Shown here: positions 4,692-26,041 of the stretch, one piece after another
Position numbering within the stretch: the first letter of the stretch is position 1
Layout: every line of letters begins with the position of its first letter
Source of the DNA: Rhizobacter sp. Root1238
GTDB taxonomy: Bacteria > Pseudomonadota > Gammaproteobacteria > Burkholderiales > Burkholderiaceae_C
Assembly (NCBI RefSeq): GCF_001425825.1
Contig: NZ_LMDM01000019.1
Coordinates: forward strand, 1-64,000
DNA length: 64,000 nucleotides
Direction: 5' to 3'
Notes under the pieces: model-generated
Databases searched by the model: none
Told to the model about the DNA's origin: nothing
Seen by the model: the letters and a program-made list of their open reading frames with translations, nothing else
Made by a program: the position numbers and the translations under genes

Positions 4692-7616
4692 ATGGCTGTG
4701 ACCACCGTCGCCCAGTTGGCTGCTGAGCTCAATCGCCCGGCGGCTGCGCTGCTCGAGCAGCTCCAGTCGGCCGGCGTCGCGAAGGCGTCGAGCGACGACG
4801 CGCTGACCGAGTCCGACAAGGAGCGACTGCTTGATTACCTTCGCACTGCCCATGGCACGGGCGGGGGCGAGCGCAAGAAGATCACGCTGACCCGCAAGTC
4901 GACCAGCGAGATCAAGCAGGCCGATTCGAGCGGCAAGGCGCGCACGATCCAGGTCGAGGTGCGCAAGAAGCGCACCTTCGTCAAGCGCGACGAATCGGCG
5001 CCGTCCGAAGAGCCGGCAGCGCCGGTCGTCGACGACGCCGAACTGCAGCGCCGCGAGGTCGAGGCCCAGGCCCAGGCCGAGCTGCTGCGCCGCCAGGAAG
5101 AAGAACTGGCCGAGAAGCGCCGCCTGCGCGAGGAACAGGAAGCCCGCGAACGCGAGGCCGCCGAGGCCCGCGCACGTGAAGCCGCCGAGGCCGCCGCGAA
5201 GGCCGCGGCCGAGGAAGCCGCGAAAGCGGCCGCCGCCGCAGCGGCTGCCGCGAAGGCCGCAGCGGCTGCGCCGACCGCGCCGACGCCGGCACCTGCCGCG
5301 AAGGCCGCGGCCGCCGCGGCCAAGGCGGCACCGGCACCGACCGCCGCGCCGGTTGCTGCTGCGCCCGTCGCGCCGGCTGCGCCTGTCGAGCCGCCGAAAC
5401 CCGCGCTGCGCGTGATCAAGGCTGCCGACGTCGTCGACGAAGAGAAGCAGCGCGCTGCCGACCTCGCCAAGCGCCGCAAGGCCGCCGAGGACGAAGCCGC
5501 CGCGATCCGCGCGATGATGAACGCGCCGAAGAAGGTGCTGACGGCCAAGAAGCCCGAAGAGCCGCCGAAGCCGGAAGCCGGCAAGGAAGGCATCAAGGGC
5601 ACGATCCACAAGCCGGCTGCCGCGCCGGGGACGACCACGGCTGCCGCCGCCGCGAAGCCGGGCGACAAGCCGGGCGACAAGAAGTCCGTCAAGTCCGAGA
5701 AGCTGTCGTCGAGCTGGGCCGATGACGCCGCGAAGAAGCGCGCGCTGAAGACCCGCAACGACGCAGCCGCCCGTCCGGGCTGGCGTGCGCCGCGTGGCGG
5801 CCGCCGTGGCGACCGCAACGATTCGCAGGGCGGCAACTTCAACGCCCCGCCGGAGCAGCAGATCCAGGAAGTGCACGTGCCGGAGACCATCAGCGTCGCC
5901 GACCTCGCGCACAAGATGTCGGTGAAGGCGTCCGAGGTCATCAAGCAGTTGATGAAGCTCGGCCAGATGGTCACGATCAACCAGCAGCTGGACCAGGAAA
6001 CGGCCATGATCCTCGTCGAGGAAATGGGCCACAAGGCGTTCGCTGCGAAGCTGGACGACCCGGAAGCCTTCCTCGAGGACACCCAGGCCGAATCGACGCA
6101 CGAAGAACTGCCGCGCGCACCGGTGGTCACCGTCATGGGTCACGTCGACCATGGCAAGACCTCGCTGCTCGACTACATCCGCCGTGCCCGCGTGGCCGCC
6201 GGTGAAGCGGGCGGCATCACGCAGCACATCGGCGCGTACCACGTCGACACGCCGCGCGGCATGATCACCTTCCTCGACACCCCGGGTCACGCGGCCTTCA
6301 CGGCGATGCGTGCCCGCGGTGCCAAGGCGACCGACATCGTCATCCTCGTGGTGGCGGCGGACGACGGCGTGATGCCGCAGACCAAGGAAGCCATCTCGCA
6401 CGCCAAGGCGGCCGGGGTGCCGATCGTGGTCGCGATGAACAAGATGGACAAGCCCGAGGCCAACGTGGAGCGCCTGAAGTCGGAGCTGGTGGCCGAACAG
6501 GTCGTGCCGGAAGACTTCGGTGGCGATTCGCCGTTCGTGCCGGTGTCGGCCAAGACCGGAATGGGCATCGACCAGCTGCTGGAACAGGTGCTGCTGCAGG
6601 CCGAGGTGCTGGAACTGAAGGCACCGAAGGACGCACCGGCCAAGGGCCTCGTGATCGAAGCCCAGCTCGACAAGGGCCGCGGCCCGGTCGCGACGGTGCT
6701 GGTGCAGTCGGGCACGCTCAAGCGTGGCGACGTGGTGCTGGCCGGCTCGACCTACGGCCGCGTGCGCGCCATGCTCGACGAAAACGGCAAGCCGGCGACC
6801 GAAGCCGGTCCGTCGTTGCCGGTCGAGATCCAGGGCCTGACCGAAGTGCCGCAGGCCGGCGACGAGTTCATGGTGCTGGCCGACGAACGCCGGGCGCGCG
6901 AGATCGCGACCTTCCGTTCGGGCAAGTACCGCGACGTCAAGCTGGCCAAGCAGCAGGCCGCCAAGCTCGAGAACATGTTCGAGAACATGGGCCAGGGCGA
7001 AGCGCAGACGCTGGCACTGATCATCAAGGCCGACGTGCAGGGTTCGCAGGAAGCACTGGCCCAGTCGCTGCTCAAGCTGAGCACCGCCGAGGTCAAGGTG
7101 CAGATCGTGCACGCGGCGGTCGGCGGCATCAGCGAGAGCGACATCAACCTCGCGATCGCCTCGAAGGCCGTGATCGTCGGCTTCAACGTGCGTGCCGATG
7201 CCGGTGCGCGCAAGCTGGCCGAAGGCAACGGCGTCGACCTGCGCTACTACAACATCATCTACGACGCGGTCGACGACGTGAAGAAGGCGATGACCGGCAT
7301 GCTGGCGCCGGAGCAGCGCGAAGAGGTGATCGGCACCGCCGAGATCCGCACGGTGTTCGTGGCGTCGAAGATCGGCACGGTGGCCGGTTCGATGGTCACC
7401 TCGGGTGTGGTGCGCCGCAACGCGCGCTTCCGCCTGCTGCGCGAGAACGTGGTGGTGTACACCGGCGAAGTCGAGTCGGTGCGCCGCCTGAAGGACGACG
7501 TGCGCGAAGTCAAGGAAGGCTTCGAGTGCGGCATCAAGCTGAAGAACTACAACGACATCGCCGAAGGCGACCAGCTGGAGTTCTTCGAGGTGAAGGAAGT
7601 GGCACGAACGCTGTAA
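4692..7616 (+). CDS. infB: Translation initiation factor IF-2
   Basis: GTPase that delivers initiator fMet-tRNA to the 30S subunit. The 974 residues are long, as in other high-GC Proteobacteria. There is an IF2N domain (1-52), then a highly charged, Ala/Lys/Glu-rich linker to about residue 380 that includes long alanine runs, then a second IF2N-like segment. The GTPase follows with GHVDHGKTS at 483-491, DTPGH at 529-533 and NKMD at 583-586, then domains II to IV with the C-terminal tRNA-binding barrel. The start [15 protein letters not shown] follows nusA by 70 bp. The repetitive linker DNA is coding and not a mobile repeat. Confidence 0.98.
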
Positions 7617-7625
7617 AGCGGAGTG

Positions 7626-7694
7626 GGTCTCCCCCCCAAACCCCGCCTTCCGAAAGATGGCGGGGTTTGTGTTTGAAGAGAGTCTCGGGAGACC
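7626..7694 (+). terminator. Nested hairpin between infB and rbfA
   Basis: An inner perfect 10-bp stem, AAACCCCGCC (7638-7647) with GGCGGGGTTT (7659-7668), is enclosed by an outer stem GGTCTCCC (7626-7633) with GGGAGACC (7687-7694). The inner stem is terminator-like but is followed by TGTGTTT, not a clean T run. It probably causes partial termination or RNA processing between the large infB cistron and rbfA. Confidence 0.6.
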
Positions 7695-7722
7695 TCCCAC
7701 GCCCCCGGCAGGAGCCTTGAAC

Positions 7723-8088
7723 ATGCGACACAAAAGAGCCATTCCGAACCGCGGTTTCCGCATCGCCGACCAGATCCAGCGCGATCTGGCGGAGCTGATC
7801 CGCGACCTGAAGGATCCGCGCATCGGCATGGTCACGCTGCAGGCGGTGGAGGTCACGCCCGACTATGCGCACGCGAAGGTGTTCTTCTCGCTGCTGGTCG
7901 GCGACGTGAAGGAATGCGAGGAGGCCTTGAACGAGGCCGCCGGCTTCCTGCGCAACGGCCTGTTCAAGCGGCTGCAGATCCACACCGTGCCGACGCTGCA
8001 TTTCCACTTCGACCGCACCACCGAGCGGGCGGCCGAATTGAGCGCGCTGATCCAGCAGGCCAATTCGACGCAGGCCAAGGACGACTGA
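7723..8088 (+). CDS. rbfA: 30S ribosome-binding factor RbfA
   Basis: Small KH-fold protein that binds the immature 30S subunit near the 16S rRNA 5' helix and helps cold-phase maturation. The 121 residues match the family, including [10 protein letters not shown]-like [14 protein letters not shown] at the N-terminus, KDPRIGMVT and the [15 protein letters not shown]-terminal helix. A CAGGAG ribosome site precedes the ATG at 7723. An in-frame ATG 66 bases upstream lies within the hairpin and is unlikely to be used. truB follows after 4 bp. Confidence 0.95.
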
Positions 8089-8092
8089 TCCG

Positions 8093-9040
8093 GTGAACGC
8101 ACAACGCCCGCGCATTCCGCGGCGCGCCGTCCACGGCGTGCTGTTGCTCGACAAGCCGCTCGGCCTGTCGAGCAACGACGCGTTGCAGAAAGCCAAGCGC
8201 CTGTACCGCGCCGAGAAGGCCGGCCACACCGGCACGCTGGACCCGCTGGCCACCGGGCTGCTGCCGCTGTGCTTCGGCGCGGCCACCAAGTTCTCGCAGG
8301 TCAGCCTCGACGCCGACAAGACCTACCGCGCCACGCTGCAGCTGGGCACCACGACCACCACGGCCGATGCCGAGGGCGAGGTGCTGCAGCAGCGCGAGGT
8401 GAACGTGACGCGCGCGCAGCTGCAGGCCGCGATCGAGCGCTTCACCGGCCCGATCCGCCAGGTGCCGCCGATGCATTCGGCGCTGAAGCACGAAGGCCGC
8501 GCGCTGTACGACTATGCGCGTGCCGGCATCGAGATCGAACGCGAGGCGCGTGCGGTGACGATTCATCGCATTGCCATCGTGGACGACGAGACTGCCCAGG
8601 CCGAAGGCCGCTGGACGCTCGACGTGCGCTGCTCGAAAGGCACCTACATCCGCACGCTGGCCGAAGACATCGGCGAAGCGCTCGGCTGCGGCGCCCACCT
8701 GGCCGCGCTGCGCCGCACCGAAACCGGCGGGCTGACGCTCGGTCAGGCGCTCACGCTGGAGCAACTGGCCGGCATGGACGAAGCACAGCGCGAAGCCGCG
8801 TTGCTCGACGCCGATGCGCTGCTGGCCGACTGGCCGGTGGTGCGCCTCGGCGACGAAGACGCCGGCCGATTCCTGAGCGGCCTGCGCCGCCGCCTGCCGC
8901 TGGCAGATGCGGAGCAGGTCCGCGTGTACGGCCCCGACCCCCGTGCGTTCCTCGGCAGTGGCCGGGTGAATGCCGGAGAACTGATTTCGACGAGGCTCTT
9001 GAGCCCGGTGGAGGTGCAAGGCCTCCTGAAGACACCTTGA
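8093..9040 (+). CDS. truB: tRNA pseudouridine(55) synthase TruB
   Basis: Isomerises U55 in the T loop of most tRNAs. It has 315 residues with the motif [12 protein letters not shown], in which D50 is the catalytic aspartate, and KTYRA and the [16 protein letters not shown] segment that follow in the family. Translation starts at GTG (8093), 4 bp after rbfA, with the start context overlapping the preceding stop region. A small PUA-like C-terminus ends the protein. Neighbour order rbfA-truB is widely conserved. Confidence 0.96.
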
Positions 9041-9056
9041 ACGCAGAGAGCACGTC

Positions 9057-10874
<1,818 letters not shown>

Positions 10875-10885
10875 TCGCTGCCGCG

Positions 10886-11752
10886 ATGACTCACGGCCGT
10901 GCGGTGGCCGGCATGGTGCTGGTCACGCTGATGTGGAGCATCGCCGGCGTGGTGACGCGCCAGCTCGAGGCTGCCCGCAGCTTCGAGGTGACGTTCTGGC
11001 GCAGCCTGGCGACCTTCGTGTGCCTGGGCGCGTATTACGCCTGGGCGCATGGCCGCAGCACCTTTGCGCTGCTGCGCGCGGGCGGCCGGCCGCTGTGGAT
11101 CTCGAGCGCGATGTGGAGCGTGATGTTCACCTGCTTCATGGTGGCGCTGACGCTGACCACGGTGGCCAACGTGCTGATCACGATGGCGCTCGCGCCGCTG
11201 ATCACCGCGGTGCTGGCGCGCTTCACGCTCGGCCATCCGGTGGCGCCACGCACCTGGGCCGCGATCGTGCTGGCCGGGCTGGGCATCGCCTACATGTACG
11301 GGCAGGGCCTCAGCTCGGAGCCGCAGCACGTGATCGGCACGCTGGTCGCGCTGGGCGTGCCGGTCGCCAGTGCCATCAACTGGAACACGCTGCAGCGCAG
11401 CGGCACCAGCGTCGACCTGGTGCCGGCGCTGCTGCTGGGCGCGCTGATCTCGGCGATCGTCACGCTGCCGTTGTCGCTGCCGCTGCAGGCCTCGGTGCAC
11501 GATGTGGGCTTGCTCGGCCTGCTGGGGCTGGTGCAGCTGGCGATCCCGTGCGTGATCGCGGTGCGCCTGGCGCGGCACCTGCCGGCGCCGGAGATGTCGT
11601 TGCTGGCGCTGCTGGAGATCGTGTTCGGCATCGCGTGGGCGTGGCTGGGCACCAGCGAGCAGCCGTCGATGGCGGTGATGGTCGGTGGCAGCCTCGTGCT
11701 GGGCACCTTGTTCGTCAATGCGTGGGTCGGGTTGCGGGAGGCGCGGGCATGA
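10886..11752 (+). CDS. DMT-superfamily (EamA) membrane exporter
   Basis: About ten hydrophobic segments in two EamA repeats make this a small-molecule exporter of the drug/metabolite transporter superfamily; the substrate cannot be told. The first repeat carries WSIAGVVTRQLE and FWRSLATF, typical of the family, and the second begins after GLSSEPQH. From the ATG at 10886 it has 288 residues; a TTG at 10871 overlapping the typA stop is an alternative. Its end overlaps the next start by ATGA. Confidence 0.85.
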   Translation: MTHGRAVAGMVLVTLMWSIAGVVTRQLEAARSFEVTFWRSLATFVCLGAYYAWAHGRSTFALLRAGGRPLWISSAMWSVMFTCFMVALTLTTVANVLITMALAPLITAVLARFTLGHPVAPRTWAAIVLAGLGIAYMYGQGLSSEPQHVIGTLVALGVPVASAINWNTLQRSGTSVDLVPALLLGALISAIVTLPLSLPLQASVHDVGLLGLLGLVQLAIPCVIAVRLARHLPAPEMSLLALLEIVFGIAWAWLGTSEQPSMAVMVGGSLVLGTLFVNAWVGLREARA

Positions 11753-12914: not shown

Positions 12915-14447
12915 ATGAAGCAGCTGTCCGGTCTGGACGCGTCCTTCCTCTACATGGAGACGCCGGAGATGCCGATGCACGTCGGCGCGTTGCACGTGTT
13001 CGAGCTGCCTGCCGCCTACAAGGGCAGCTTCGTCGCCGACGTGCGGCGCCACATCGGCTCGCGGCTGCCGCTCGCACCGCCGCTGTGCCGCAAGCTGGCG
13101 TGGATGCCGTTCAACCTCGCCAACCCGGTGTGGGTCGATGCCATGCCCGACCTCGCGCAGCACATCGTCGGCATCAAGCTGCCCAAGGGCAGCGGTCTGG
13201 CCGAGCTCGACGAGCAGGTCAGCCGCCTGCATCCGGTGCTGCTCGACCGCGACCGCCCGCTGTGGAAGTTCCACGTCTTCGAAGGCCTCGCGCCCGGGCC
13301 TGGCAAGGCAAAGCGAGTCGGCCTCTACACGCAGCTGCACCACGCCGCCGTCGATGGCCAGGCCGCGATCGCGCTGGCCCAGGCCATCCTCGACATCCAG
13401 CCCACACCGCGCGACATCGACCACGAGACCCGTCCGGCGAAGAAGCTCGACATCGGCCTCGCCGGCCTGCTGAGCGGCGTGCTCGCGAACCAATTGCAGC
13501 AGTACGGCAATCTGGTGAAAGCCTTGCCGTCGACGGTGGGTGCGCTGTCGCAGGTGGCGGCGAAGGGCGCGCGCAGCGTGGCCGGTCGTGTCGCCAGCAC
13601 CAACGCCGGCGACGCATCGATCGGCCTCGCGCCCCGCACCCGGCTCAACGCCTCGGTGACCGCCGGCCGCGCCTTTGCCGGCGTCAGCCTGCCGATCGCG
13701 CAGGTCAAGGCGCTGCGCCGCGCGCACGATGCCACGCTGAACGACGTCGTGCTGATGCTGTGCGGCGGCGCGTTGCGACGCCACTTCCTGCAGCACGGCC
13801 CGCTGCCGCGCAAGTCGATGGTGGCGGCGGTGCCGGTGTCGACCCGCGCGGCCGGCGACACCACCGCGAACAACCAGGCCTCGATGACGGTCGTGAACCT
13901 CGGCACCCACCTCGCCGACCCGATGGAGCGCCTGCGCTACGTGCAGGCCGCGAGCGCCGCGATGAAGTCGACGCTCGGCAGCGTCAAGAGCCTGATGCCC
14001 ACCGATTTCCCGTCGCTCGGCGTGCCGTGGCTGATGAGCACCGTCACCTCGCTGTACGGCAAGGCCGGTGTCGCCGACCGCATTCCGCCGATCGCCAACG
14101 TCGTGATCTCGAACGTGCCCGGGCCGGCGTTTCCGCTCTACATGGCCGGCGCACGCATGCTGACCAACTACCCGGCCTCGATCGTCGTGCATGGCGTTGC
14201 GCTCAACATCACGGTGCAGAGTTATGACGCATCGCTGGATTTCGGGCTGATGGCGTGTGCGAAGGCGATGCCCGAGGTGGGCGAGCTCGCGACGCATCTC
14301 GAAGAAGCGCTGGCCGAGCTGCTGGCGCTGCCGGCCACCAGCGCATCTGTCACCAAGGTGACACTCGAGCCGACGCCCAAGCCCAAACCGAAGGTGCCCG
14401 CCAAACCTAGGGCCAAGGCTCCAGCCAAAGCCGCCGCCGCTCGCTGA
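12915..14447 (+). CDS. Wax ester synthase/diacylglycerol acyltransferase (WS/DGAT)
   Basis: Transfers acyl groups from acyl-CoA to fatty alcohols or diacylglycerol, forming storage lipids. The 510 residues start MKQLSGLDASFLYMETPEMPMHVG, a typical WS/DGAT beginning. The catalytic HHxxxDG motif is HHAAVDG at 142-148. A second conserved stretch VISNVPGP and the NYP region of the C-terminal half are present. The last 30 residues are a Lys/Pro/Ala tail, perhaps for anionic surfaces. A GAGAGG ribosome site precedes the ATG. Two alpha/beta hydrolases follow, suggesting a neutral-lipid synthesis and turnover cluster. Confidence 0.93.
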   Translation: MKQLSGLDASFLYMETPEMPMHVGALHVFELPAAYKGSFVADVRRHIGSRLPLAPPLCRKLAWMPFNLANPVWVDAMPDLAQHIVGIKLPKGSGLAELDEQVSRLHPVLLDRDRPLWKFHVFEGLAPGPGKAKRVGLYTQLHHAAVDGQAAIALAQAILDIQPTPRDIDHETRPAKKLDIGLAGLLSGVLANQLQQYGNLVKALPSTVGALSQVAAKGARSVAGRVASTNAGDASIGLAPRTRLNASVTAGRAFAGVSLPIAQVKALRRAHDATLNDVVLMLCGGALRRHFLQHGPLPRKSMVAAVPVSTRAAGDTTANNQASMTVVNLGTHLADPMERLRYVQAASAAMKSTLGSVKSLMPTDFPSLGVPWLMSTVTSLYGKAGVADRIPPIANVVISNVPGPAFPLYMAGARMLTNYPASIVVHGVALNITVQSYDASLDFGLMACAKAMPEVGELATHLEEALAELLALPATSASVTKVTLEPTPKPKPKVPAKPRAKAPAKAAAAR

Positions 14448-14499: not shown

Positions 14500-15303
14500 A
14501 TGCCTCATGACGGCGCGCAGCAGTCCTCCCCCGACGCCCGGAATGACCTGAAGGCCCCCAACGCCTTGCTCCTGATGCTCGAAGGGCGCGCGCCCTGGGA
14601 GTTCGCCGCCATGCTCGCGTCGTCGCCGGTGCTGAACCGCGCACTCGACAAGCTGCCGCCGGGCGACGGCCATCCGGTGCTCGTCTTCCCCGGCCTGGCC
14701 GCAGCCGATTTCACGACCGTGCCGCTGCGCAACTTCCTGCGCGACCGCGGCTATGTGCCGTACCCGTGGGAACAGGGCTTCAACTTCGGGCCGCGCGAGG
14801 GCGTGCTCGAGCGCTGCGTCGAGACGGTCGACCTGCTGCACCGCCGCCACCAGAAGCCGGTCAGCCTGATCGGCTGGAGCCTCGGCGGCGTCTACGCACG
14901 CGAGGTCGCCAAAGAGCGCCCGCAGCACACCCGCTGCGTGATCACGCTCGGCACGCCGTTCACCGGCCACCCGCGCGCCACCAACGCCTGGCGCCTCTAC
15001 GAATGGGTCAGTGGCCAGAGCGTGCACGACCCGGCCTTGCTCGATCAGGTGCGCCGCCCGCCGCCGGTGCCGACCACCTCGATCTACTCGCGCACCGACG
15101 GTGTCGTCGCGTGGCAATGCAGCATCAATGAAGACTCGCCGCTGGCCGAGAACATCGAGGTGCATGCGAGCCACCTCGGCATGGGCGTGAACCCGTTGGC
15201 GCTCTACGCGATCGCCGACCGGCTCGCGCAGGATCCGGCGCACTGGCAGCGCTTCGCCACCGGCGGCGCGCGCAAGTGGTTCTTCAAGGCCGTCGGCGCA
15301 TGA
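14500..15303 (+). CDS. Alpha/beta hydrolase, lipase/esterase-like
   Basis: A 267-residue hydrolase without an evident signal peptide, hence cytoplasmic. The nucleophile elbow is GWSLGG. A likely acid is the Asp in YSRTDGVV and a likely His lies in ASHLGMGVN, giving a full triad. The motif VFPGLAAAD supplies the oxyanion strand. It follows WS/DGAT by 52 bp and its stop overlaps the next start (ATGA). A role in wax ester or triacylglycerol handling is inference from position. Exact substrate unknown. Confidence 0.8.
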   Translation: MPHDGAQQSSPDARNDLKAPNALLLMLEGRAPWEFAAMLASSPVLNRALDKLPPGDGHPVLVFPGLAAADFTTVPLRNFLRDRGYVPYPWEQGFNFGPREGVLERCVETVDLLHRRHQKPVSLIGWSLGGVYAREVAKERPQHTRCVITLGTPFTGHPRATNAWRLYEWVSGQSVHDPALLDQVRRPPPVPTTSIYSRTDGVVAWQCSINEDSPLAENIEVHASHLGMGVNPLALYAIADRLAQDPAHWQRFATGGARKWFFKAVGA

Positions 15304-16184
15304 AGCTCTCGGCCAACGGCATTTCGCTCGAGGTCGAGGACCACGGTTCACCGGACGGCGAGCCGCTGCTGCTGGTGATGGGCCTGGGCATGCAGCTCAC
15401 CGCCTGGCCCGACGAGCTGGTGCAGATGCTGGTGGCACGCGGCTTCCGGGTGATCCGCTTCGACAACCGCGATGTCGGCCTGAGCCAGGGCTTCGACCAG
15501 TTGGGCGTGCCGAACGTGGCAGTGGCCGCGATGAAGTTCGCCTTCCACCTGCCGATCCGCCCGCCGTACCCGCTGAGCGCGCTGGCCGACGATGCCGTCG
15601 GCGTGCTCGATGCGCTGGGCATCGCGCAAGCCCATGTGTGTGGCGCGTCGATGGGCGGCATGGTGGCGCAGCTGATGGCCATCCATCATCCGCAGCGACT
15701 GAAGAGCCTGACGCTGATGATGACCAGCACCGGCTCGCGCCGCGTGCCGATGGCCACGCCCGAGGTGCGGCGCGCCTTGCTGAGCCGGCCGGAGAACCCG
15801 CGCGACCCGGCGTCGATCGCGGCGCACCTGGGACGCTTCATGCACCTGATCGGCAGCCCGGCGTACCGGCCCGACCCGGCGTGGATGCAGGCCAGGCTGC
15901 GCGCGGCGGTCGACCGCGCGTACCGCCCGGCGGGCACCGCGCGCCAGCTGGTCGCGATTGCGGCCGATGGCGACCGCAGCCGGCGCCTGGCCGGCGTGAA
16001 GCTGCCATGCCGCGTGATCCATGGCCAGGCCGACCCGCTGGTGCCGGTGGGTGCGGCGCACGACCTGGCCCGCAAGATCGCCGGCTCCGAACTCGACCTG
16101 ATCGACGGCATGGGGCACGACCTGCCCTTGCCCTTGCTGCCGCGTTTCACGCAGGGCATCGCGCTGGCCGCGGGCCGGGCCTGA
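15300..16184 (+). CDS. Alpha/beta hydrolase
   Basis: A 294-residue alpha/beta-fold hydrolase. GASMGG forms the nucleophile elbow, the Asp in HGQADPLVP and the His in GMGHDLP complete the triad. The start ATG at 15300 overlaps the previous stop by ATGA, so the pair is translationally coupled; a longer in-frame opening from 15276 lies inside the previous gene. It resembles the esterases annotated next to storage-lipid genes, but the substrate cannot be deduced. It ends 8 bp before a convergent small gene. Confidence 0.85.
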   Translation: MKLSANGISLEVEDHGSPDGEPLLLVMGLGMQLTAWPDELVQMLVARGFRVIRFDNRDVGLSQGFDQLGVPNVAVAAMKFAFHLPIRPPYPLSALADDAVGVLDALGIAQAHVCGASMGGMVAQLMAIHHPQRLKSLTLMMTSTGSRRVPMATPEVRRALLSRPENPRDPASIAAHLGRFMHLIGSPAYRPDPAWMQARLRAAVDRAYRPAGTARQLVAIAADGDRSRRLAGVKLPCRVIHGQADPLVPVGAAHDLARKIAGSELDLIDGMGHDLPLPLLPRFTQGIALAAGRA

Positions 16185-16191
16185 GCGGCTG

Positions 16192-16434
16192 TCAGCGGCT
16201 GCACGGCAGCCGCGCATCGTTGCTGGCTTCAGCGCGCGCGTCGCGTTGATCGGACACCCCCTGCTGCAGCCATTCGAGCGCGGCCGCGCCGGGCTCCATG
16301 CCCTGCCAGTACGGCTCGGAGATCAGCGCCCACGCGAGGTGTTCGAGGTCGCTGCGGTCGACGCGCGGCCATTGTTCCTGCAGGCGCTCGGCGCACTTCA
16401 GCGCCCAGTTTTCGGAAGTCATGTCGGGGTTCAT
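16192..16434 (-). CDS. Small conserved-type protein of unknown function
   Basis: I do not recognise this 80-residue protein. It is acidic in the middle, Trp-rich for its size (five Trp, including WALKCAE, HLAWAL and YWQGM), has no signal peptide or membrane segment, and its composition looks genuinely coding. It is convergent with the hydrolase gene. A perfect 18-bp palindrome lies 45 bp upstream of its start and overlaps the place where a -35 box would sit, suggesting it is the regulated gene. Confidence 0.55.
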   Translation of the reverse strand: MNPDMTSENWALKCAERLQEQWPRVDRSDLEHLAWALISEPYWQGMEPGAAALEWLQQGVSDQRDARAEASNDARLPCSR

Positions 16435-16479
16435 CGCAGTCGTTCGGCAGAGTCGAGGAGCGATGCATCGTAGCGATTA

Positions 16480-16497
16480 ACTGTACGAACGTACAGT
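16480..16497. promoter_or_regulatory. Perfect 18-bp palindrome, TetR-type operator candidate
   Basis: ACTGTACG-AA-CGTACAGT is a perfect 8-bp inverted repeat around AA. Such symmetry and length suit a TetR-family dimer. A TACGAT -10 candidate (472-467 in the 16400s, minus strand) sits 17 bp from the TGTACG arm, so binding would block the small gene's promoter. No TetR gene is in the window. Confidence 0.6.
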
Positions 16498-16544
16498 ATT
16501 CCCGAGTGCTGTCTGCAGCTGTCAGTTGCGTGCCTCAAAACGCA

Positions 16545-17543
16545 TCACGGCGCGACCTGTTCGTTGCCGTAGGTCTTCACCAGGTAGTCGACGATGGCCG
16601 GCATGTCGGCGTCGGGGACGGGTGCCTTGAAGACGCCCTTCATGCGCTTGACCATCGCGTCCCAGTAAGGGCGCGCGGCGGTCGGCGGCTGGAAGGCCAT
16701 GTACTCGGCCGAGTGGCAGGCGGTGCAGTGGGCCTGGGCCTTCTCGAAGCCGGGCAGCGCACTCGGTTTGAGTTGCAGGCCGTCGGGCGGCAGTTCGATG
16801 TTCTTCGGCACCGCGGGCGCCGCCGTCGGCCACGCGGTGGCGAGTGCGGCGGCGAGCTTGACCGGGTAGCCGTTGAGCAGCGGGATGTCGGCGCCGTTCA
16901 TCTGGTAGGCGAGCATCACCTCGCCGTCCATCGCGTGGGCGATGTCCAGCGCCTTCACGAAGTTGCCGCCACCGAAGAGCGCGATGTCCAGGCCGTTGAA
17001 GCTGACCTGGCGTGCACTGTTCTTCGGTTCGGCCCGCGCCAGAACGTCCTTCAGCGGCACGCCCAGCCAGCGCGCATTGCCCATCGCGCCGTTGCCGAGT
17101 TGCCCGCCGGTGACGCGGGGGCTGAAGAAGCCGCGGCTGTTGCCCGAGCACTGGTTGACGGCGACGATCTCGGTCGGCTTGAACTGCGTGCGCAGCTCGC
17201 TCAACTTCAGCTCATGGGGCTTGGCGAGCGCGTTGCCACCGATCTTGATGATGTGCGTGTCGGCGTCGATCGAGGTCGGGATGCCGGCGTTGTGATAGCG
17301 CACGAAGAAGGCATCGTTGGGCGTCAGGAGGCCGTCGTTGAAGACCTCGAAAGGCGTTTCGAGCTGCGGCGGCCGCGAGGTCAGCACGATCAGCGGGCGC
17401 TTCTCGGGGAAGGCGACCAGCTTGCGCTTGCCGTTGACGAAGGGGAGGTCGACGGGCGTGGGCGCCTGCGCGAGGGCATGGCGTGCCAGCGTGGCACCGG
17501 CCAGCAGGCCGGCGCCGCCGGCGAGAAGTCTGCGACGTTGCAT
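16545..17543 (-). CDS. Sulfite dehydrogenase chimera: SorA molybdopterin half fused to SorB cytochrome c
   Basis: Residues 1-26 are a twin-arginine signal (RRRLLAGG, then a hydrophobic run to HALAQA). Residues 30-230 match the catalytic half of SorA-type sulfite dehydrogenases: C132 in VNQCSGNSRG is the molybdenum ligand, and AYQMNGADIPLLNGYPVKL is retained. At residue 230/231 the SorA sequence stops, where family members continue with the PGYYGT-type segment and a dimerisation domain. It becomes SorB-like: a remnant signal sequence ending TAAPA, then IELPPDG and a haem site CTACH at 273-277 with PTAARPYWDAM. At 332 residues it lacks roughly 150 residues expected of SorA. An in-frame deletion joining two neighbouring genes is the simplest reading. 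Function is doubtful. An upstream in-frame ATG at 17648 lacks the Tat start. Confidence 0.75.
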   Translation of the reverse strand: MQRRRLLAGGAGLLAGATLARHALAQAPTPVDLPFVNGKRKLVAFPEKRPLIVLTSRPPQLETPFEVFNDGLLTPNDAFFVRYHNAGIPTSIDADTHIIKIGGNALAKPHELKLSELRTQFKPTEIVAVNQCSGNSRGFFSPRVTGGQLGNGAMGNARWLGVPLKDVLARAEPKNSARQVSFNGLDIALFGGGNFVKALDIAHAMDGEVMLAYQMNGADIPLLNGYPVKLAAALATAWPTAAPAVPKNIELPPDGLQLKPSALPGFEKAQAHCTACHSAEYMAFQPPTAARPYWDAMVKRMKGVFKAPVPDADMPAIVDYLVKTYGNEQVAP

Positions 17544-17678
17544 GGGGCGTCTCCGGTATGGCGGCCACGCCCGGTGGGCAGCCTGTCGTGTGTGGACGCG
17601 GGTGATGGCGACCTGGCCTGCGAGGTGATCTGCAGCGACTGACCCCACCGCTCATGTCGCTCGTCGTTCTTTGGGACA

Positions 17679-18710
<1,032 letters not shown>

Positions 18711-18733
18711 CCGGGACGCCCATCCGGGAAATC

Positions 18734-19474
18734 CTACGGCTGCGGCGCCAGCGGGCACGCGCTGCAGTACGCCTGCGCCGGCAGCCGGTAGAACAGGCAG
18801 CACTGCCGGTGCAGCCGGATGTCGCGCGGCGCGTCGGCGTGCGGGCGCTGCCGCGGCCACAACGGGTTGGCCCGGGCGTCGTGCCACAGCGGCTGGTCCA
18901 GCAGCGTGTCGCGGTCGCGTGCGATCGGGGCCGCGTGCCCGGCCAGCGCCAGCGCCTGCTCGAAGATGCCGTCGAGCCGACGCGCCAGGTTGCCCCACAG
19001 GATCTTCGGCGGGAGCCGCGCGCGGCGCGCCAGTTGCGCGAACAGCGGCGCCAGGTGGGCGTCGATCAACGGCGCGAGGCGGGTCGCGCCATCGGCACCC
19101 GGATGCGGCGTGCCGATGTGCCCGATGTAGAACCGGCGCGGCACCGCCGCGGTGTCGTCGAACGCGACCTGCATCTCGTGCGGCGCGGTCGGGAACACCT
19201 GCTGCAGCACGCTGGCTGCCGCGACCACCGGCGGCAGCAGCGCATCGAGGTAGGCGAAGCACCAGCTCGACGCGGCCGCACGCAGGTCGGTGCCGTGCCG
19301 CTCCGCATGGCTCACGCCGAGGCGACACGCATGCCGGCGCAGCAGGTCGTCGAGCAAGTCGTCTTGCGCATCGATCAGCCGATGCACGCCGACAGCGCCC
19401 GCCGGTGGCCGCGCCGCGCACACCAGCGCCTCGCCGAGCGGCGCCCAGGCGCCCTGGAAAAGAGGTTCGAGCAT
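18734..19474 (-). CDS. Siderophore-iron reductase, FhuF-like
   Basis: FhuF proteins reduce ferric siderophores in the cytoplasm by means of a [2Fe-2S] cluster bound by an unusual C-C-X10-C-X2-C motif. Here that motif is C225, C226, C237 and C240 at the extreme C-terminus (QCCLFYRLPAQAYCSACP), exactly as in the family. The start ATG at 19474 gives 246 residues, close to normal. The open frame continues upstream but without homology. It is divergent from a cyclic-peptide ABC exporter, a partnership expected in siderophore loci, although no siderophore synthesis gene is in the window. Confidence 0.85.
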   Translation of the reverse strand: MLEPLFQGAWAPLGEALVCAARPPAGAVGVHRLIDAQDDLLDDLLRRHACRLGVSHAERHGTDLRAAASSWCFAYLDALLPPVVAAASVLQQVFPTAPHEMQVAFDDTAAVPRRFYIGHIGTPHPGADGATRLAPLIDAHLAPLFAQLARRARLPPKILWGNLARRLDGIFEQALALAGHAAPIARDRDTLLDQPLWHDARANPLWPRQRPHADAPRDIRLHRQCCLFYRLPAQAYCSACPLAPQP

Positions 19475-19556
19475 CGGGATCACGACTGAGCAGACGAACG
19501 GGGCAGGGCGGTGTTCAGCCCGCCACGCCGCTGAACGGCGGCACGCGTGGTTCGTC

Positions 19557-21272
19557 ATGCAAGCCATGAGCCCTCCTGTCCCGACCCCTTCCAACCCGCC
19601 CTTTGTCGACCGGCCGTTCGCCGAAGTCGCACGCCTGCTGCGGCCGTTCCTGCCGTGGCTGGCGCTGTCGGTCGTCACCGGCATCGCGGCCGGCGCGGCC
19701 ACCGTCGCGCTGCTGGGCACGATCAACCAGGTGCTGAACCGCAGCGGCGGCATGGCCGGCGGGCTGCTGCTGACCTTCGTGTCGCTGTGCGCGGTGGCGC
19801 TGGTCGGCCGCGTGACCTCCGACATGTCGACCAACCGGGTCGGCCAGCGGCTGGTGGCGCAGGTGCGCAAGTCGCTGGCGCAGAAGATCCTGTCGGCGCC
19901 GATCGACGCACTGGAGCGCTACCGGACGCACCGCCTGATGCCGGTGCTGACGCAGGACGTCGACATGATCAGCGACGCCGGCTTCGTGCTCGCGTCCACC
20001 GTGATCGCGCTGTCGATCGCGCTCGGCTGCCTGGGCTACCTCGCGTGGCTGTCGCTGCCGATGTTCGGGTTGCTGGTGGTGGCGCTCGCGGTCGGCGCCG
20101 CGGTGCAGGCGGTGGTGCTGACGCGCGCCGAGGCCGGCTTCTGGCGCGCGCGCGACGGCGAGGAGCAGCTGCACCAAGCCTATCGCGGCATCAGCGAAGG
20201 CGCGAAGGAGCTGCGCATGCACCGCGGGCGGCGGGCGCGGATGATGTCCGGCCAGATCGAGCGGACGGTCGACGGCATCCGCGCCGTCAACCAGCGCGCG
20301 ATCAACACCTACGTGGTCGGCAGCGCGTTCGGCTCGGCGCTGTTCTTCCTGCTGATCGCGGTGATCCTCGGCTGGGCCGCGGCGAGCACCGTGGCACCGG
20401 CGGTGCTGAGCGGCTTCGTGCTGGTGCTGCTGTTCCTGAAGGGCCCGATCGACCAGCTGGTCGGCGTACTGCCGAACGTCGGCCGCGCGAAGGTGGCGTT
20501 TCAGCGCATCGGCGACCTGTCATTGCGCTTCGCGACGCCCGAGCCGCACCTGCACCTGGACCGGCCGGCCGGCGAACTCGCGTTCACCGATGCGATCGAG
20601 TTGCGCGGCGTGCGCTATGCGTTCGATGCGCCGGAGGGGGGCGGTGAACCGTTCGAGCTCGGCCCGGTCGACCTGGTGCTGCGACGCGGCGAGCTGGTCT
20701 TCATCGTCGGCGACAACGGTTCCGGCAAGACGACGCTGATCAAGCTGCTGCTCGGGCTGTATGCGCCGCAGCAGGGCGAGCTGCGGCTCGACGGCCAACC
20801 GGTGACCGACGCGACGCGCGACGACTACCGGCAGCTGTTCACCACGGTGTTCTCCGATTTCTACCTGTTCCAGGACCTGCTGGCCGGCGAGGGCGGGGCG
20901 CCGCTGCCGCTGCCGGAAGCGGCGCGGCCGTACCTGGAGCGGCTGGAGATCGCGCACAAGGTGTCGGTGCGCGACGGCGCGTTCACCACCACCGACCTGT
21001 CGACCGGCCAGCGCAAGCGGCTGGCGCTGGTGCACGCGTGGCTCGAAGGCCGGCCGGTGCTGGTGTTCGACGAATGGGCGGCCGACCAGGACCCGGCCTT
21101 CCGCCACCTGTTCTACACCGAGCTGCTGCCCGAGCTGCGCGCGAAGGGCCACCTGGTGGTGGTGATCTCGCACGACGACCGGTATTTCCATGTGGCGGAT
21201 CGAGTGGTGCGGATGGCGGCGGGGAAGGTGGAAAGGCCGGTGAAGGAGTCGGCGGAAGCGATCGCTGCGTGA
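19557..21272 (+). CDS. Cyclic peptide/siderophore export ABC transporter (PvdE/SyrD type)
   Basis: A 571-residue half-transporter with six membrane segments (about 25-320) followed by an ATPase domain. Walker A is GDNGSGKTT, the signature is LSTGQRKRLAL and Walker B is VLVFDEWAADQDP, a form characteristic of the PvdE/SyrD group, with VISHDDRYF as the switch His. Such proteins export non-ribosomal peptides such as pyoverdine precursor. MQAMSPP at 19557 or the internal ATG at 19566 may be the start. It pairs divergently with the FhuF-like gene. Confidence 0.9.
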   Translation: MQAMSPPVPTPSNPPFVDRPFAEVARLLRPFLPWLALSVVTGIAAGAATVALLGTINQVLNRSGGMAGGLLLTFVSLCAVALVGRVTSDMSTNRVGQRLVAQVRKSLAQKILSAPIDALERYRTHRLMPVLTQDVDMISDAGFVLASTVIALSIALGCLGYLAWLSLPMFGLLVVALAVGAAVQAVVLTRAEAGFWRARDGEEQLHQAYRGISEGAKELRMHRGRRARMMSGQIERTVDGIRAVNQRAINTYVVGSAFGSALFFLLIAVILGWAAASTVAPAVLSGFVLVLLFLKGPIDQLVGVLPNVGRAKVAFQRIGDLSLRFATPEPHLHLDRPAGELAFTDAIELRGVRYAFDAPEGGGEPFELGPVDLVLRRGELVFIVGDNGSGKTTLIKLLLGLYAPQQGELRLDGQPVTDATRDDYRQLFTTVFSDFYLFQDLLAGEGGAPLPLPEAARPYLERLEIAHKVSVRDGAFTTTDLSTGQRKRLALVHAWLEGRPVLVFDEWAADQDPAFRHLFYTELLPELRAKGHLVVVISHDDRYFHVADRVVRMAAGKVERPVKESAEAIAA

Positions 21273-21283
21273 ATCACTTTTGC

Positions 21284-21297
21284 GCATCAGGTGATGC
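21284..21297. promoter_or_regulatory. Palindrome upstream of the VapBC-like pair
   Basis: GCATCA-GG-TGATGC is a perfect 6-bp inverted repeat 41 bp before the antitoxin start. TACATT follows directly as a -10 candidate. Autoregulation by antitoxin-toxin complexes through such palindromes is normal, so this is a reasonable operator candidate. Confidence 0.5.
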
Positions 21298-21337
21298 TAC
21301 ATTCAGTGCCCACCGAGGCAGCCCAAGGCGTTCACAC

Positions 21338-21538
21338 ATGCGAACCACCATCACCATCGACGACGATCTCCTGGCCAAGGCCACCAAGCTCACCGGGCCA
21401 CTGGACCGGTCGGCCATGGTGCGCGAGGGCTTGAAAGCGCTCATCGAGCGCGAGAGTGCCAGGCGTCTGGCTCGGCTCGGCGGCACGCAACCGCAACTGA
21501 AAGCTGCTCCTCGCCGCCGTGGCGGAGACGAAACTTGA
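21338..21538 (+). CDS. VapB-type antitoxin (ribbon-helix-helix)
   Basis: A 66-residue protein whose N-terminus MRTTITIDDDLLAKA is the standard beta strand and first helix of ribbon-helix-helix antitoxins of the VapB/DUF2191 kind. The strand binds DNA and the basic C-terminal tail (RRLARLGGTQPQLKAAPRRRGG) should wrap the toxin. The start has the ATG at 21338, and the stop overlaps the toxin start codon by ATGA-like TTGA. It follows the ABC exporter by 66 bp but has its own palindromic control site. Confidence 0.85.
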   Translation: MRTTITIDDDLLAKATKLTGPLDRSAMVREGLKALIERESARRLARLGGTQPQLKAAPRRRGGDET

Positions 21539-21912
21539 TCCTGGTCGATACCTCGGTGTGGGTCGATCACTTGCAGAAGGGTGACACCCATCTGGCCACA
21601 TTGCTTGAGCGCGGCACGGTGGCAATGCATCCCTTCATCGTCGGGGAGATCGCATGTGGCAGCCTCGCCGATCGGCGCAATGTGCTGGAGCTGCTGCAGG
21701 ACTTGCCGGCAGCTGTTGTTGCCGAAGGTGCCGAGGTGCTGGAGTTCATCGAGCGCCACACCCTTCACGGGAAGGGTATCGGCTATGTCGACGTGCATCT
21801 GCTCGCCTCGGCCGCTTTGACGCCGAATTCCACCTTGTGGACGCGCGATCGGAGATTGCGCGAAGCCGCCGAGCTGCTGGGATGTGCCCACCAGCCCGCC
21901 GGTGCTCACTGA
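21535..21912 (+). CDS. VapC-type PIN-domain ribonuclease toxin
   Basis: A 125-residue PIN-domain protein, expected to cleave RNA when freed from its antitoxin. The four acidic metal ligands are visible: D5 in ILVDTSVW, E38 in VGEIACG, D86 in GYVDVHLLASA and D105 in LWTRDRRL. Translation begins at TTG 21535, overlapping the antitoxin stop, so expression is tightly coupled. All catalytic residues are intact, so the pair looks functional. Confidence 0.9.
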   Translation: MILVDTSVWVDHLQKGDTHLATLLERGTVAMHPFIVGEIACGSLADRRNVLELLQDLPAAVVAEGAEVLEFIERHTLHGKGIGYVDVHLLASAALTPNSTLWTRDRRLREAAELLGCAHQPAGAH

Positions 21913-21994
21913 TTCCGGCTCGCTGACACACTTCGGGTTCGGCAACGAGCGTTCGAAAAGTTGACTTTGCCGTGGATTCAGGCGACATGTGCTG

Positions 21995-22732
21995 ATGCGC
22001 CGACTTCAGTTCATCACCTACCGCCACCGCTCGCACTCGACGAACCGGACCCTCGGGTTGCTGCTGGCCTTCAATGCCGGCGCGGTGAACGCCGGCGGCT
22101 TCCTGGTCCTGCACACCTACACCTCGCACATGACCGGCTTCGCGTCGCAGCTTGCCGACGGTGCCGTGCTGGGCAACGGCATGCTGTTCCTGAACGCCCT
22201 CGGCGCGATCCTCGCGTTCATCCTGGGGGCCGCCGTCTGCGCAGTGCTCGTCAACTGGGCACGCCAGAGCCGGCTGCGCAGCATCTATGCGCCGCCGCTG
22301 CTGCTGGAGGCGGCCCTGATGTTTCCGTTCGGCCTGATGGGCGCCATCACGCTCACCTGGACGACGCCGTTTGCCGTGCCGCTGACGGTGCTGCTGCTGT
22401 CCTTCATCATGGGACTGCAGAACGCCGTGGGCTCGAAGACCTCGGGCGGCAGCATCCGCACCACCCACATGACCGGCAACATCACCGATTTCGGGATGGA
22501 ACTGGGCAAGCTGGCGTACTGGAACGCGCGCAACACGCCTGCGGCCGCCATGGTCCGGCATGAACAGGCCCGGATGCAGCGCTCGGCCGGCCTCATCCTG
22601 ATGTTCCTGGCGGGCGGCGCGGCGGGCGCACTGGGCTTCAAGCACGTCGGCTTCATCTGCGTGGTGCCGCTGGCGGTGCTGCTGCTGGCGCTGTCGGTTC
22701 CACCGCTCGTGCGCGAGTTGTCCTCAGGCTGA
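21995..22732 (+). CDS. DUF1275 (YoaK) family membrane protein
   Basis: A 245-residue integral membrane protein with about six or seven hydrophobic segments. Diagnostic for DUF1275 are the repeated HMTG motifs: YTSHMTGFASQLADG near residue 45 and RTTHMTGNITDFGMEL near residue 165, plus FNAGAVNAGGFL. The family function is unknown; a transporter role is often guessed. ATG 21995 was chosen; a GTG at 21989 adds two residues. It is a stand-alone gene between the toxin pair and the KaiC-like gene. Confidence 0.85.
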   Translation: MRRLQFITYRHRSHSTNRTLGLLLAFNAGAVNAGGFLVLHTYTSHMTGFASQLADGAVLGNGMLFLNALGAILAFILGAAVCAVLVNWARQSRLRSIYAPPLLLEAALMFPFGLMGAITLTWTTPFAVPLTVLLLSFIMGLQNAVGSKTSGGSIRTTHMTGNITDFGMELGKLAYWNARNTPAAAMVRHEQARMQRSAGLILMFLAGGAAGALGFKHVGFICVVPLAVLLLALSVPPLVRELSSG

Positions 22733-22881
22733 TTTCCGGCCAATGTGGAGTTTTCCTACAGGGGCATCCGGGCTTCGCCGACGGCTGCCGCGTGGCACGT
22801 CGTGAATACTGTCTTCAACGAGGAGAGGCAGAAAAGGTGGGCACGGTGCCCGCCCACGGAACCCCACTGAAGGAAGATGAC

Positions 22882-24378
22882 ATGACCGACACCAGCGAGG
22901 CCGGGCCTGTTCGCACTTCCACCGGCGTCGCCGGCCTGGATGCCATCCTGGGCGGCGGGCTGACCCCGTCGAGGATGTACCTGCTCGAAGGCACGCCCGG
23001 AACCGGCAAGACCACCTTCGGGCTGAAGTACCTGATGGCCGGCGTGGCGGCTGGCGAGACCGGCCTCTACATCACGCTGTCGGAGACGGCCAGGGAACTG
23101 AGTGCGGTCGTCGCATCCCATGGCTGGACGCTCGACGGCATCCATATCCAGGAACTGGGCAACGACATCGGCCTGATGGCCGAAGAAGCCCAGACCATCC
23201 TGCATCCGTCCGAGATCGAACTCGGCGAAACCGTCAGGGCGATGACGCAGGAGGTCGAGCGGCTCAACCCGCGCCGGGTGGTCTTCGACAGCCTGTCCGA
23301 GATGCGCCTGCTGGCCCAGGACCCGCTGCGCTACCGCCGGCAGATCCTCGCGCTCAAGCACTTCTTCTCGGACCGCGAATGCACCGTCCTGCTGCTGGAC
23401 GACAAGACCTCCGAGCCGACCGACCTGCAACTGCACAGCATCGCCCACGGCGTGATCAGCCTCCAACAGGAAGCGCGCGAGTTCGGGGCCGAGCGCAGGG
23501 CGCTGCGCGTCGTCAAGATGCGCGGCACGAAGTTCCACGGCGGCTGGCACGACTTCATGCTCGACACCGGCGTCGTGGAGGTGTTCCCCCGCCTGATCGC
23601 TGCCGCGCACCACACCCCGTTCGACGCTCCGCTGGCCACGACCGGCTCGGCCCAGCTGGACACGATGCTCGGCGGCGGCCTGGCGGTCGGCACCAACATG
23701 CTGCTGCTGGGCCCCTCGGGCGCGGGCAAGACGACCACCGCCGTGCGGTGCATGCTGTCCGCCCTGGAGCGCGGCGAGAACGCCGATTACTACCTGTTCG
23801 ACGAAGGCGTCGCGACGCTGCTGACGCGCAGCCGGAACCTCGGCATGGCGCTGGACGAGCACATCGAGTCCGGCCGGCTCGTGGTCCACCAGATCGATCC
23901 CGCCTCGCTGTCTCCGGGCGAATTCGCGTCGCGGGTGGTCGGCGGCGTCTCGAAGCGAGGGGCGACCTTCGTCGGCATCGACAGCCTGAACGCCTACGTG
24001 CATGCCATGCCGGGGCAGAGCTTCCTGATGCTCCACATGCACGAGCTGCTGACCTACCTGAATCAACAAGGGGTCCTGACGCTGCTGATCGTGGGCCAGC
24101 ATGGGCTGGTCGGCGACGTCCACTCCGACATCGATCTCAGCTACCTCAGCGACGCGATCCTTCTCTATCGGTTCTTCGAGGCGCAGAGCGAGGTCCGCAC
24201 CGCGCTCGCGGTCTTGAAGAGCCGCACCACGCAGCATGAACGATCGATCCGCGAGCTTCGCCTCGGGTTGCCCTCCGGCCTCCAGGTCGGTGACGAGCTT
24301 CGAAACTTCGAAGGCATTCTTGCGGGCGCGGTCGCGTACACCGGATCGACGCCGCTGCTGACCGATTCGCAAGGCTGA
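22882..24378 (+). CDS. KaiC-like double RecA-fold ATPase
   Basis: A 498-residue protein with two KaiC/RAD55 domains in tandem. Domain 1 has Walker A GTPGTGKTT at 37-45 and Walker B RRVVFDSLSEM. Domain 2 has GPSGAGKTT at 277-285 and ATFVGIDSLNAY. Where cyanobacterial KaiC carries a Glu pair for catalysis, these domains read LSETARE and FDEGVAT, so the two may differ in activity. No kaiA or kaiB is present. A GAAGGA ribosome site supports the ATG at 22882. The gene runs 2 bp before a hybrid histidine kinase, a pairing that suggests a signalling switch in place of a clock. Confidence 0.88.
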   Translation: MTDTSEAGPVRTSTGVAGLDAILGGGLTPSRMYLLEGTPGTGKTTFGLKYLMAGVAAGETGLYITLSETARELSAVVASHGWTLDGIHIQELGNDIGLMAEEAQTILHPSEIELGETVRAMTQEVERLNPRRVVFDSLSEMRLLAQDPLRYRRQILALKHFFSDRECTVLLLDDKTSEPTDLQLHSIAHGVISLQQEAREFGAERRALRVVKMRGTKFHGGWHDFMLDTGVVEVFPRLIAAAHHTPFDAPLATTGSAQLDTMLGGGLAVGTNMLLLGPSGAGKTTTAVRCMLSALERGENADYYLFDEGVATLLTRSRNLGMALDEHIESGRLVVHQIDPASLSPGEFASRVVGGVSKRGATFVGIDSLNAYVHAMPGQSFLMLHMHELLTYLNQQGVLTLLIVGQHGLVGDVHSDIDLSYLSDAILLYRFFEAQSEVRTALAVLKSRTTQHERSIRELRLGLPSGLQVGDELRNFEGILAGAVAYTGSTPLLTDSQG

Positions 24379-24380
24379 GC

Positions 24381-26015
24381 GTGCAGCGCGACAGCAGCAA
24401 CCGCCGGCGGGTCCTCGTGCTCGCTCCCAGGGGCCGCGACGCCGCGGTGATCGAGCAGGTGCTGTCGGGGCTCGACATCGCCGTCGAGGTGTGCCCGAAC
24501 CTGGCCGAGCTGACGGCCGGGCTCGGCGACGAGACGACCGCAGCCATCCTCACCGAGGAGTCGTTGAACGAAGACGGGGCTTCGTCGCTGCAGCGCTGGA
24601 TCGAGAGCCAGCCGCCGTGGTCGGACTTTCCGTTCGTGGTGCTGGCGACCCGGCAGCCGGCGCGGCGGTCCGCCAACGCGGCGGCGGCGCTGGCCCGACT
24701 GGGAAACGCGGTGCTTCTCGAACGGCCGCTGAATGCCGACACGCTCGTCAGTGCCGCCAATTCGGCGATGAGGTCTCGCCGACGGCAGTACGACGCCCGG
24801 CGCCAGCTGGAACAGTACGAGGCCGTGGCCCTGGAGAACCAGCGGCTCTTCGAGGCCGAACGCCGCGCGCGTGCCGAAGCCGAGGCGGCCAACCGGGCCA
24901 CCGATGATTTCCTCGCGACGCTGTCGCACGAGTTGAGGACACCGCTGAGCGCGATCCTCGGATGGACCTATGTGCTTCAGCGGCGCCGCGGAGAACTCGG
25001 CGAGCTGGCCCGCGGCATCGACACCATCCAGCGCAACGCGAACTCGCAGGCACGGCTCATCGAGGACCTGCTCGACATGAGCCGCATCGTCGCCGGCAAG
25101 GTCAGCCTGGAGTTGCAGACGGTCGTGCCGTCGCAGTTGCTCGAACAGGTCGTGTCGTCGCTGCTGCCGAGCGCCCAGACCAAGGGGATCGAGCTCGTCA
25201 CCGTGCTCGATCCGGCGCTGACGCCGATCACCGGCGACCCGCAGCGACTGCTGCAGGTGTTCCGGAACCTGATCGTGAACGCGCTCAAGTTCACGCCGGG
25301 CGGCGGCGTGGTGCGGGTCGAAGCCGCCGTGGAGGGGGAGGCGCTGGTGGTCCGGGTGGTCGACAACGGCGTCGGAATCTCGGCCGACTTCCTGCCGCAC
25401 GTCTTCGAGCGGTTCCGGCAGGCGGACGGGTCGACGACCCGGTCGCAGGGCGGGCTGGGCCTGGGCCTGGCCATCGTCAGCCGCCTCGTCGAATTGCACG
25501 GCGGCTCGATCGCGGCGCAGAGCGACGGCATCGGCAAGGGCGCCACGTTCACCGTGCGCCTCCCGCCGATCGAGGCGGCGCAGCCGGTGCATGAAGCGGC
25601 GAACGACGCGGTGCACGGTCACCCGGGTGGGCGCGGGCGAATCCTGAACATCAGGATCCTGCTGGTGGAAGACGACCCCGACGGTCGCGAGATGGTCAAC
25701 CAGCTGCTGCGGGACGAGGGCGGCGAGGTCGTCGCCGTCGATTCCGCCGCGCGGGCCTTGTCGGCGCTGCGGGATGGCGTGTTCGACCTGATCGTCAGCG
25801 ACATCGGCATGCCCGACATCGACGGCTACGAGTTCATGAAACGCATCCGCGACGCGGGCAATCCGATTCCGGCCATCGCGTTGACGGCCTTCGCGCGCCC
25901 TGAAGACAAGGCCAGGGCGCTGGAGGTCGGGTATTCAGCGCACATCAGCAAGCCGGTCGAGCCGCCTGCACTGATCGCTGCGGTCGCCGGCGTGATGGGT
26001 TCGGGCCGGCGGTGA
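24381..26015 (+). CDS. Hybrid histidine kinase coupled to KaiC-like protein
   Basis: A 544-residue soluble kinase with no membrane segment. Residues 1-130 look like a degenerate receiver without clear phosphoacceptor. A coiled coil (140-172) leads to HisKA with H183 in LSHELRTPLSAILG, then the HATPase domain (NLIVNALKFTPGGG, DNGVGIS, GGLGLGLAI), and a C-terminal receiver (about 420-540) with D474 in IVSDIGMPDIDG and the Lys of SKPVEPP. Translation starts at GTG 24381, 2 bp after the KaiC-like gene. Input probably comes through protein contact with that ATPase; this is inference from coupling. Confidence 0.9.
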   Translation: MQRDSSNRRRVLVLAPRGRDAAVIEQVLSGLDIAVEVCPNLAELTAGLGDETTAAILTEESLNEDGASSLQRWIESQPPWSDFPFVVLATRQPARRSANAAAALARLGNAVLLERPLNADTLVSAANSAMRSRRRQYDARRQLEQYEAVALENQRLFEAERRARAEAEAANRATDDFLATLSHELRTPLSAILGWTYVLQRRRGELGELARGIDTIQRNANSQARLIEDLLDMSRIVAGKVSLELQTVVPSQLLEQVVSSLLPSAQTKGIELVTVLDPALTPITGDPQRLLQVFRNLIVNALKFTPGGGVVRVEAAVEGEALVVRVVDNGVGISADFLPHVFERFRQADGSTTRSQGGLGLGLAIVSRLVELHGGSIAAQSDGIGKGATFTVRLPPIEAAQPVHEAANDAVHGHPGGRGRILNIRILLVEDDPDGREMVNQLLRDEGGEVVAVDSAARALSALRDGVFDLIVSDIGMPDIDGYEFMKRIRDAGNPIPAIALTAFARPEDKARALEVGYSAHISKPVEPPALIAAVAGVMGSGRR

Positions 26016-26041
26016 CCGGGAGGGGTGCCCCCCTCGCCACG

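Follow-up and report, generated by a model that had tools for sequence, protein, structure and literature searches.

An in-frame SorA-SorB chimera in Rhizobacter sp. Root1238: very probably a recent deletion-fusion pseudogene of a sorAB operon

The chimeric frame and its retained parts

The minus strand of the window, by which we mean the whole stretch of 64,000 nucleotides analysed (contig C19 of the 6.5-Mb, 50-contig genome of the soil bacterium Rhizobacter sp. Root1238), carries at positions 16545-17543 a frame of 332 amino acids (P0001) that combines parts of SorA and SorB. Residues 1-332 match the genome of origin in a single frame with zero stops, and the protein consists of SorA residues 1-230, followed by the last part of the SorB signal peptide and the complete SorB haem domain. 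Translation, NCBIfam matches and alignment to the congener Rhizobacter sp. SG703 bear out the coordinates, strand, frame, both halves and the junction at residue 230/231 that a sequence-only reading of this DNA had given.

The SorA-derived part (residues 1-230; 16854-17543, minus strand), delimited by alignment to sorA of SG703, by PF00174 and by NCBIfam, comprises a putative Tat-type signal peptide, assigned by appearance without a prediction tool, and a truncated molybdopterin domain. The NCBIfam SorA profile (NF052245) matches residues 3-231 with its positions 1-227 of 396 at 346.7 bits, and the chimera fails the cut-off of 600 bits. Pfam reports PF00174 alone (profile positions 3-144 of 169, ending at residue 233); the dimerisation domain PF03404 was not found in the chimera by this search. 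The SorB-derived part (16545-16853, minus strand), delimited by the SorB profile and SorB of SG703, contains the signal-peptide end (approximately residues 231-243) and the full cytochrome domain. Its profile (NF052246) matches residues 245-325 over positions 2-80 of 80 with 105.1 bits and passes the 93-bit cut-off. This moiety has neither its own start nor a complete signal peptide: the first 13 codons are deleted and it is fused to SorA, with no separate chain. The solved SorA (2BLF), which we take to originate from Starkeya novella, aligns with residues 31-232, and the solved SorB with residues 246-325.

Several functionally important residues are present in both halves. Cys132 (17148-17150, minus strand), listed as a kept Mo ligand in the sequence-only reading, indeed aligns with position 104 of chain A of 2BLF, where Cys104 is presumably the Mo ligand of the solved SorA. 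Arg82 and His84 (17292-17300, minus strand) correspond to positions 55 and 57 of the solved SorA, at which the solved sequences 2ca3 and 2ca4 deviate; we assume that these Arg and His counterparts have active-site roles. The retained SorA part departs from no column that is at least 97% conserved among 81 SorA sequences. In the SorB part, the CxxCH haem c attachment motif (residues 273-277; 16713-16727, minus strand) is kept, with C273, C276 and H277 each found in 77 of 77 SorB sequences, and each of the 16 positions that reach at least 95% conservation in these sequences, the motif and Met301 among them, is unchanged.

The intact counterpart and the deleted stretch

The closest congener in our comparison, SG703, possesses ordinary separate sorA (401 aa) and sorB (115 aa) genes that adjoin dusA at the collinear place, and both products exceed their NCBIfam cut-offs (SorA 663 vs 600 bits, SorB 107.6 vs 93 bits). 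Around the locus the window is collinear with 40 kb of the SG703 genome, with 90.6-96.5% nucleotide identity in the aligned pieces, and the retained halves of the chimera share 94-97% amino acid identity with their SG703 counterparts. In an offset scan the chimera tracks SG703 sorA to base 688-690 and from there the SG703 sequence 566 bp onward, with 47 mismatches in 999 bases. The junction (16853-16856, minus strand) thus lies at base 688, 689 or 690 of the coding sequence, and the blastn pieces of window and SG703 meet at 16854/16855. Counted at base 690, the missing 566 bp comprise 516 bp of sorA (codons 231-401 and the stop), the 11-bp spacer and the first 39 bp (13 codons) of sorB. Because the ambiguity of the break, and with it the homology at the join, is just 2 bp, no repeat points to a homologous deletion or to a collapse in the assembly.

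The loss is larger than first thought: some 150 residues had been estimated to be missing from the dimerisation half of SorA, and residues are indeed missing there, but the full count is 171 (231-401 of 401), of which about 28 belong to the molybdopterin-binding domain. In SorA of SG703 the Mo domain (PF00174) reaches residue 258 and the dimerisation domain (PF03404) starts at 285, both at full length; the deletion therefore reaches beyond the dimerisation half into the end of the Mo domain. Among the 81 SorA sequences, 53 of the 203 retained mature positions are invariant versus 27 of the 171 lost ones, i.e. conservation is weaker in the deleted half than in the retained one. The invariant positions lost include V232-P-G, G237-T-Y-W, K242-H and Y263. 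The last of these, invariant in all 81 sequences, aligns with position 236 of the solved SorA (Phe in 2c9x), and since it lies within the deleted stretch, the chimera is devoid of the active-site Tyr236. We take Tyr236 to correspond to Tyr322 of sulfite oxidase. In a computed reaction of the latter enzyme, Tyr322 forms a hydrogen bond with the equatorial oxygen in each of the five states (PMC5856855).

Predicted structures reached a mean pLDDT of 52.9 for the chimera (73-row alignment) and of 58.7 for intact SG703 SorA (12 rows), and the prediction did not discriminate; in both models pLDDT drops below 50 around the Mo ligand (129-155 and 129-156), and neither is strong enough to support a fold search. 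The intact model, itself of low pLDDT, has predicted strands at 229-233, 239-243 and 246-250, which would fall mostly into the lost stretch.

Distribution of the fusion and of sulfite oxidation genes

A match to the SorA half was found at 111 loci, 87 of which also match the SorB half. Apart from the window's own locus, and with the SG703 locus (present three times) counted once, 84 loci with both halves were available for comparison, mainly from the best 80 of 171 relatives; they include some distant family members and at least two pairs with identical SorA, and the fusion occurs in none of them. Residues 1-332 were likewise found in one piece only in Root1238 in a family sample (399 genomes, 44 with a match at 1e-40) and in an order sample (399 genomes, 37 with a match at 1e-30), which overlap partly and in which up to five candidates were scored per genome. 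The same short fusion in relatives, which the sequence-only reading had held would tell against its view, was therefore found at none of these 84 loci and, Root1238 itself apart, in none of the 399 family and 399 order genomes. As the examined relatives with both halves have two genes, the fusion is derived in the lineage of the window.

Plasmid records yielded 278 matches, 14 of which cover at least 80% of the query; among the 20 of 278 that were listed, 19 are made up of two joined pieces, while the match of the remaining one is limited to the SorA half. A short SorA frame of 366 codons in one family member (G331) was considered as a second chimera and rejected, as its SorA is frameshifted and its SorB a separate frame. 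This locus (L117, 733-2432), with a frameshift-split sorA beside a separate sorB frame, represents either independent decay or a sequencing error. A literature search over titles and the beginnings of abstracts found no report of a SorA-SorB chimera, which is no proof of absence.

Among 11 genomes of the genus, a clear SorA-type match is confined to Root1238 and SG703; the best matches in seven others are 32-36% identical, and the remaining two gave nothing at E 1e-15. Two of the seven congeners with weak matches were checked and both pass the SorT cut-off. The only other match in the Root1238 genome is a SoxC-type protein on contig 5 (TIGR04555, 517.7 vs 420 bits). The genome has no SoxB match above its cut-off, and the search with the chimera as query recovered no SorT, although the SorT genes of congeners match that query. 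The chimera suggests that its lineage has lost SorAB sulfite oxidation, while the two checked congeners carry a different type, SorT.

The SoxC-type gene (L119, approximately 6590-11525; contig 5, about 44.6-49.5 kb) lies together with a small gene with a CxxCH motif amid an arsenic-resistance-like cluster, whose neighbouring frames we regard as ArsR-like, arsenate-reductase-like (two), transporter-like and ArsH-like. The two genes may form a distinct Mo enzyme pair with a link to arsenic or sulfur.

Origin and fate of the chimera

We are confident that the locus is a recent, lineage-specific deletion-fusion pseudogene of an ordinary sorAB operon. The starting state would have been the sorAB sulfite dehydrogenase operon of a Rhizobacter lineage. 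One illegitimate deletion event, involving little or no microhomology, would have excised 566 bp, running from within sorA through its 3' end and the spacer into the beginning of sorB, the reading frame being kept by chance (one in three). The product would begin with a Tat-type signal peptide and end with an intact SorB haem domain; the molybdopterin domain between them would be truncated, and both the active-site tyrosine and the dimerisation domain would be lacking. Judged from its sequence, such a product is most likely unable to hold a working Mo centre or to oxidise sulfite, which would make the locus a young pseudogene. The single in-frame deletion, a 'pseudogene in disguise', had been among the proposals of the sequence-only reading and gains support from the intact sorA and sorB of a collinear congener, from which one 566-bp deletion suffices to derive the chimera, and from the lack of any other case in the genomes examined. 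Conserved parts are lost relative to an intact syntenic homologue, as is expected of a pseudogene. Counting against a pseudogene are the absence of accumulated stops or frameshifts, the unchanged state of the highly conserved positions that were kept, the lower conservation of the lost half, and substitution counts that do not differ significantly between the branches.

These counts rest on codon changes polarised with up to 25 nearest outgroups per site. In the SorA part, 7 nonsynonymous and 5 synonymous changes fall on the window branch, compared with 5 and 9 on the SG703 branch; in the SorB part the corresponding numbers are 3 and 5 for the window and 1 and 6 for SG703. One further synonymous difference was left unpolarised. 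Pooled, this amounts to 10:10 in the window versus 6:15 in SG703, an excess that is not significant (two-sided p = 0.21). Three substitutions in the SorA part of the window affect positions with a narrow choice of residues: D194N (80 outgroups: D 59, E 21), S113K (S 47, T 32, K 1) and Y110H (no H). Together with the branch counts they lean towards relaxed selection, without amounting to proof. Pairwise dN/dS against SG703 is 0.244 for the SorA part and 0.104 for the SorB part, compared with 0.058 for dusA (330 of 343 codons aligned), 0.226 for the gene at 12915-14447, 0.132 and 0.117 for two hydrolases and 0.113 for an 80-aa frame; that the SorA part slightly exceeds the highest of these five usable neighbours proves nothing. 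The scarcity of visible decay would be due to the recency of the deletion. The open frame and the intact conserved positions fit a recent deletion, and they also fit some retained function.

An assembly error, in which the cells have intact sorA and sorB and the 566 bp were dropped in assembly, is an improbable alternative. A frame kept open and highly conserved positions intact in both halves are what a living operon would present; on the other hand, a collapse would need a repeat, and the absence of one beyond 2 bp at the join makes it unlikely. Furthermore, the join lies inside an 88-kb contig of an assembly in 50 contigs that is listed as 100 complete and 0.02 contaminated. The deletion is thus most likely real in the cells.

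We see equally little chance that the deletion made a working single-chain protein still used by the cell, be it a Tat-exported cytochrome or a monomeric Mo-haem electron carrier. In the first of these variants the SorA part would be dead, and the chimera, exported by the signal peptide, would serve as a periplasmic c-type cytochrome through its SorB domain. The retained CxxCH, Met301 and the full set of 16 highly conserved SorB positions agree with such a repurposing, as do the open frame and the SorB-part dN/dS of 0.10, but this ratio does not stem from the time after the deletion alone. Haem c attachment follows export, and a protein whose Mo domain is misfolded would probably not be exported by way of its Tat signal. 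With no second case in the loci and genome samples examined, we consider the repurposed cytochrome quite unlikely.

That the chimera is a minimal self-contained sulfite dehydrogenase, in which Mo domain and haem share one chain and electrons are transferred internally without the dimerisation half, is hardly credible: Cys132, Arg82 and His84 are kept, and a join at this position is not absurd, because in the SorAB crystal the N-terminal arm of SorB wraps the Mo domain of SorA (PMC4760952), but the chimera lacks both the active-site tyrosine and the invariant end of the molybdopterin domain, and the fusion is confined to one genome among the loci and samples examined, so that this proposal of the sequence-only reading is left with no positive support.

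Compared with SorAB (sulfite:cytochrome c oxidoreductase; 2BLF; NF052245 and NF052246), the chimera has both its halves from sorA and sorB and keeps the signal peptide, the Mo ligand, the haem motif and the genome position; it differs in being one chain instead of two subunits and in lacking 171 SorA residues, the spacer and 13 residues of SorB. Pseudogenes formed by deletion and fusion of neighbouring bacterial genes are a known class, in which, as here, a single deletion links the two genes in frame and removes essential parts; the chimera is no different in kind, its frame merely happens to stay open. Vertebrate sulfite oxidase also unites haem and Mo parts in one polypeptide, with an N-terminal b5-type haem domain. 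However, neither its Mo domain nor its dimerisation domain is truncated, and the origins of the two fusions are not shared.

The locus would be a case of ordinary gene loss that one could easily take for a new enzyme. It cautions that a frame-preserving deletion can leave, in place of an operon, a single clean open frame, which would be annotated by its domains as a fusion enzyme. If the chimera did oxidise sulfite, the need for the active-site tyrosine and the dimerisation half would be overturned.

The flanks of the chimera also differ from SG703. No RNA family reached its gathering score in window positions 15000-20000. Upstream, a stretch at 17601-17626 diverges strongly and SG703 is 44 bp longer; the promoter region of the chimera may be altered too. 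On the other side, the window has a single copy of CCTCAAAACG (16533-16542), a 10-bp repeat that in SG703 bounds both sides of an additional segment (about 1.27 kb) immediately downstream of sorB (contig 1, approximately 20479-21744), with a frame that we take to be methyltransferase-like. This difference reflects either an insertion in SG703 or a loss in the window. Farther away, window positions 21563-26041 (about 4.5 kb) are absent at the corresponding place in SG703; the frame at 22792-24378 presumably encodes a KaiC-like ATPase, and near 21.5 kb lies what appears to be part of a small PIN-like pair of toxin-antitoxin type.
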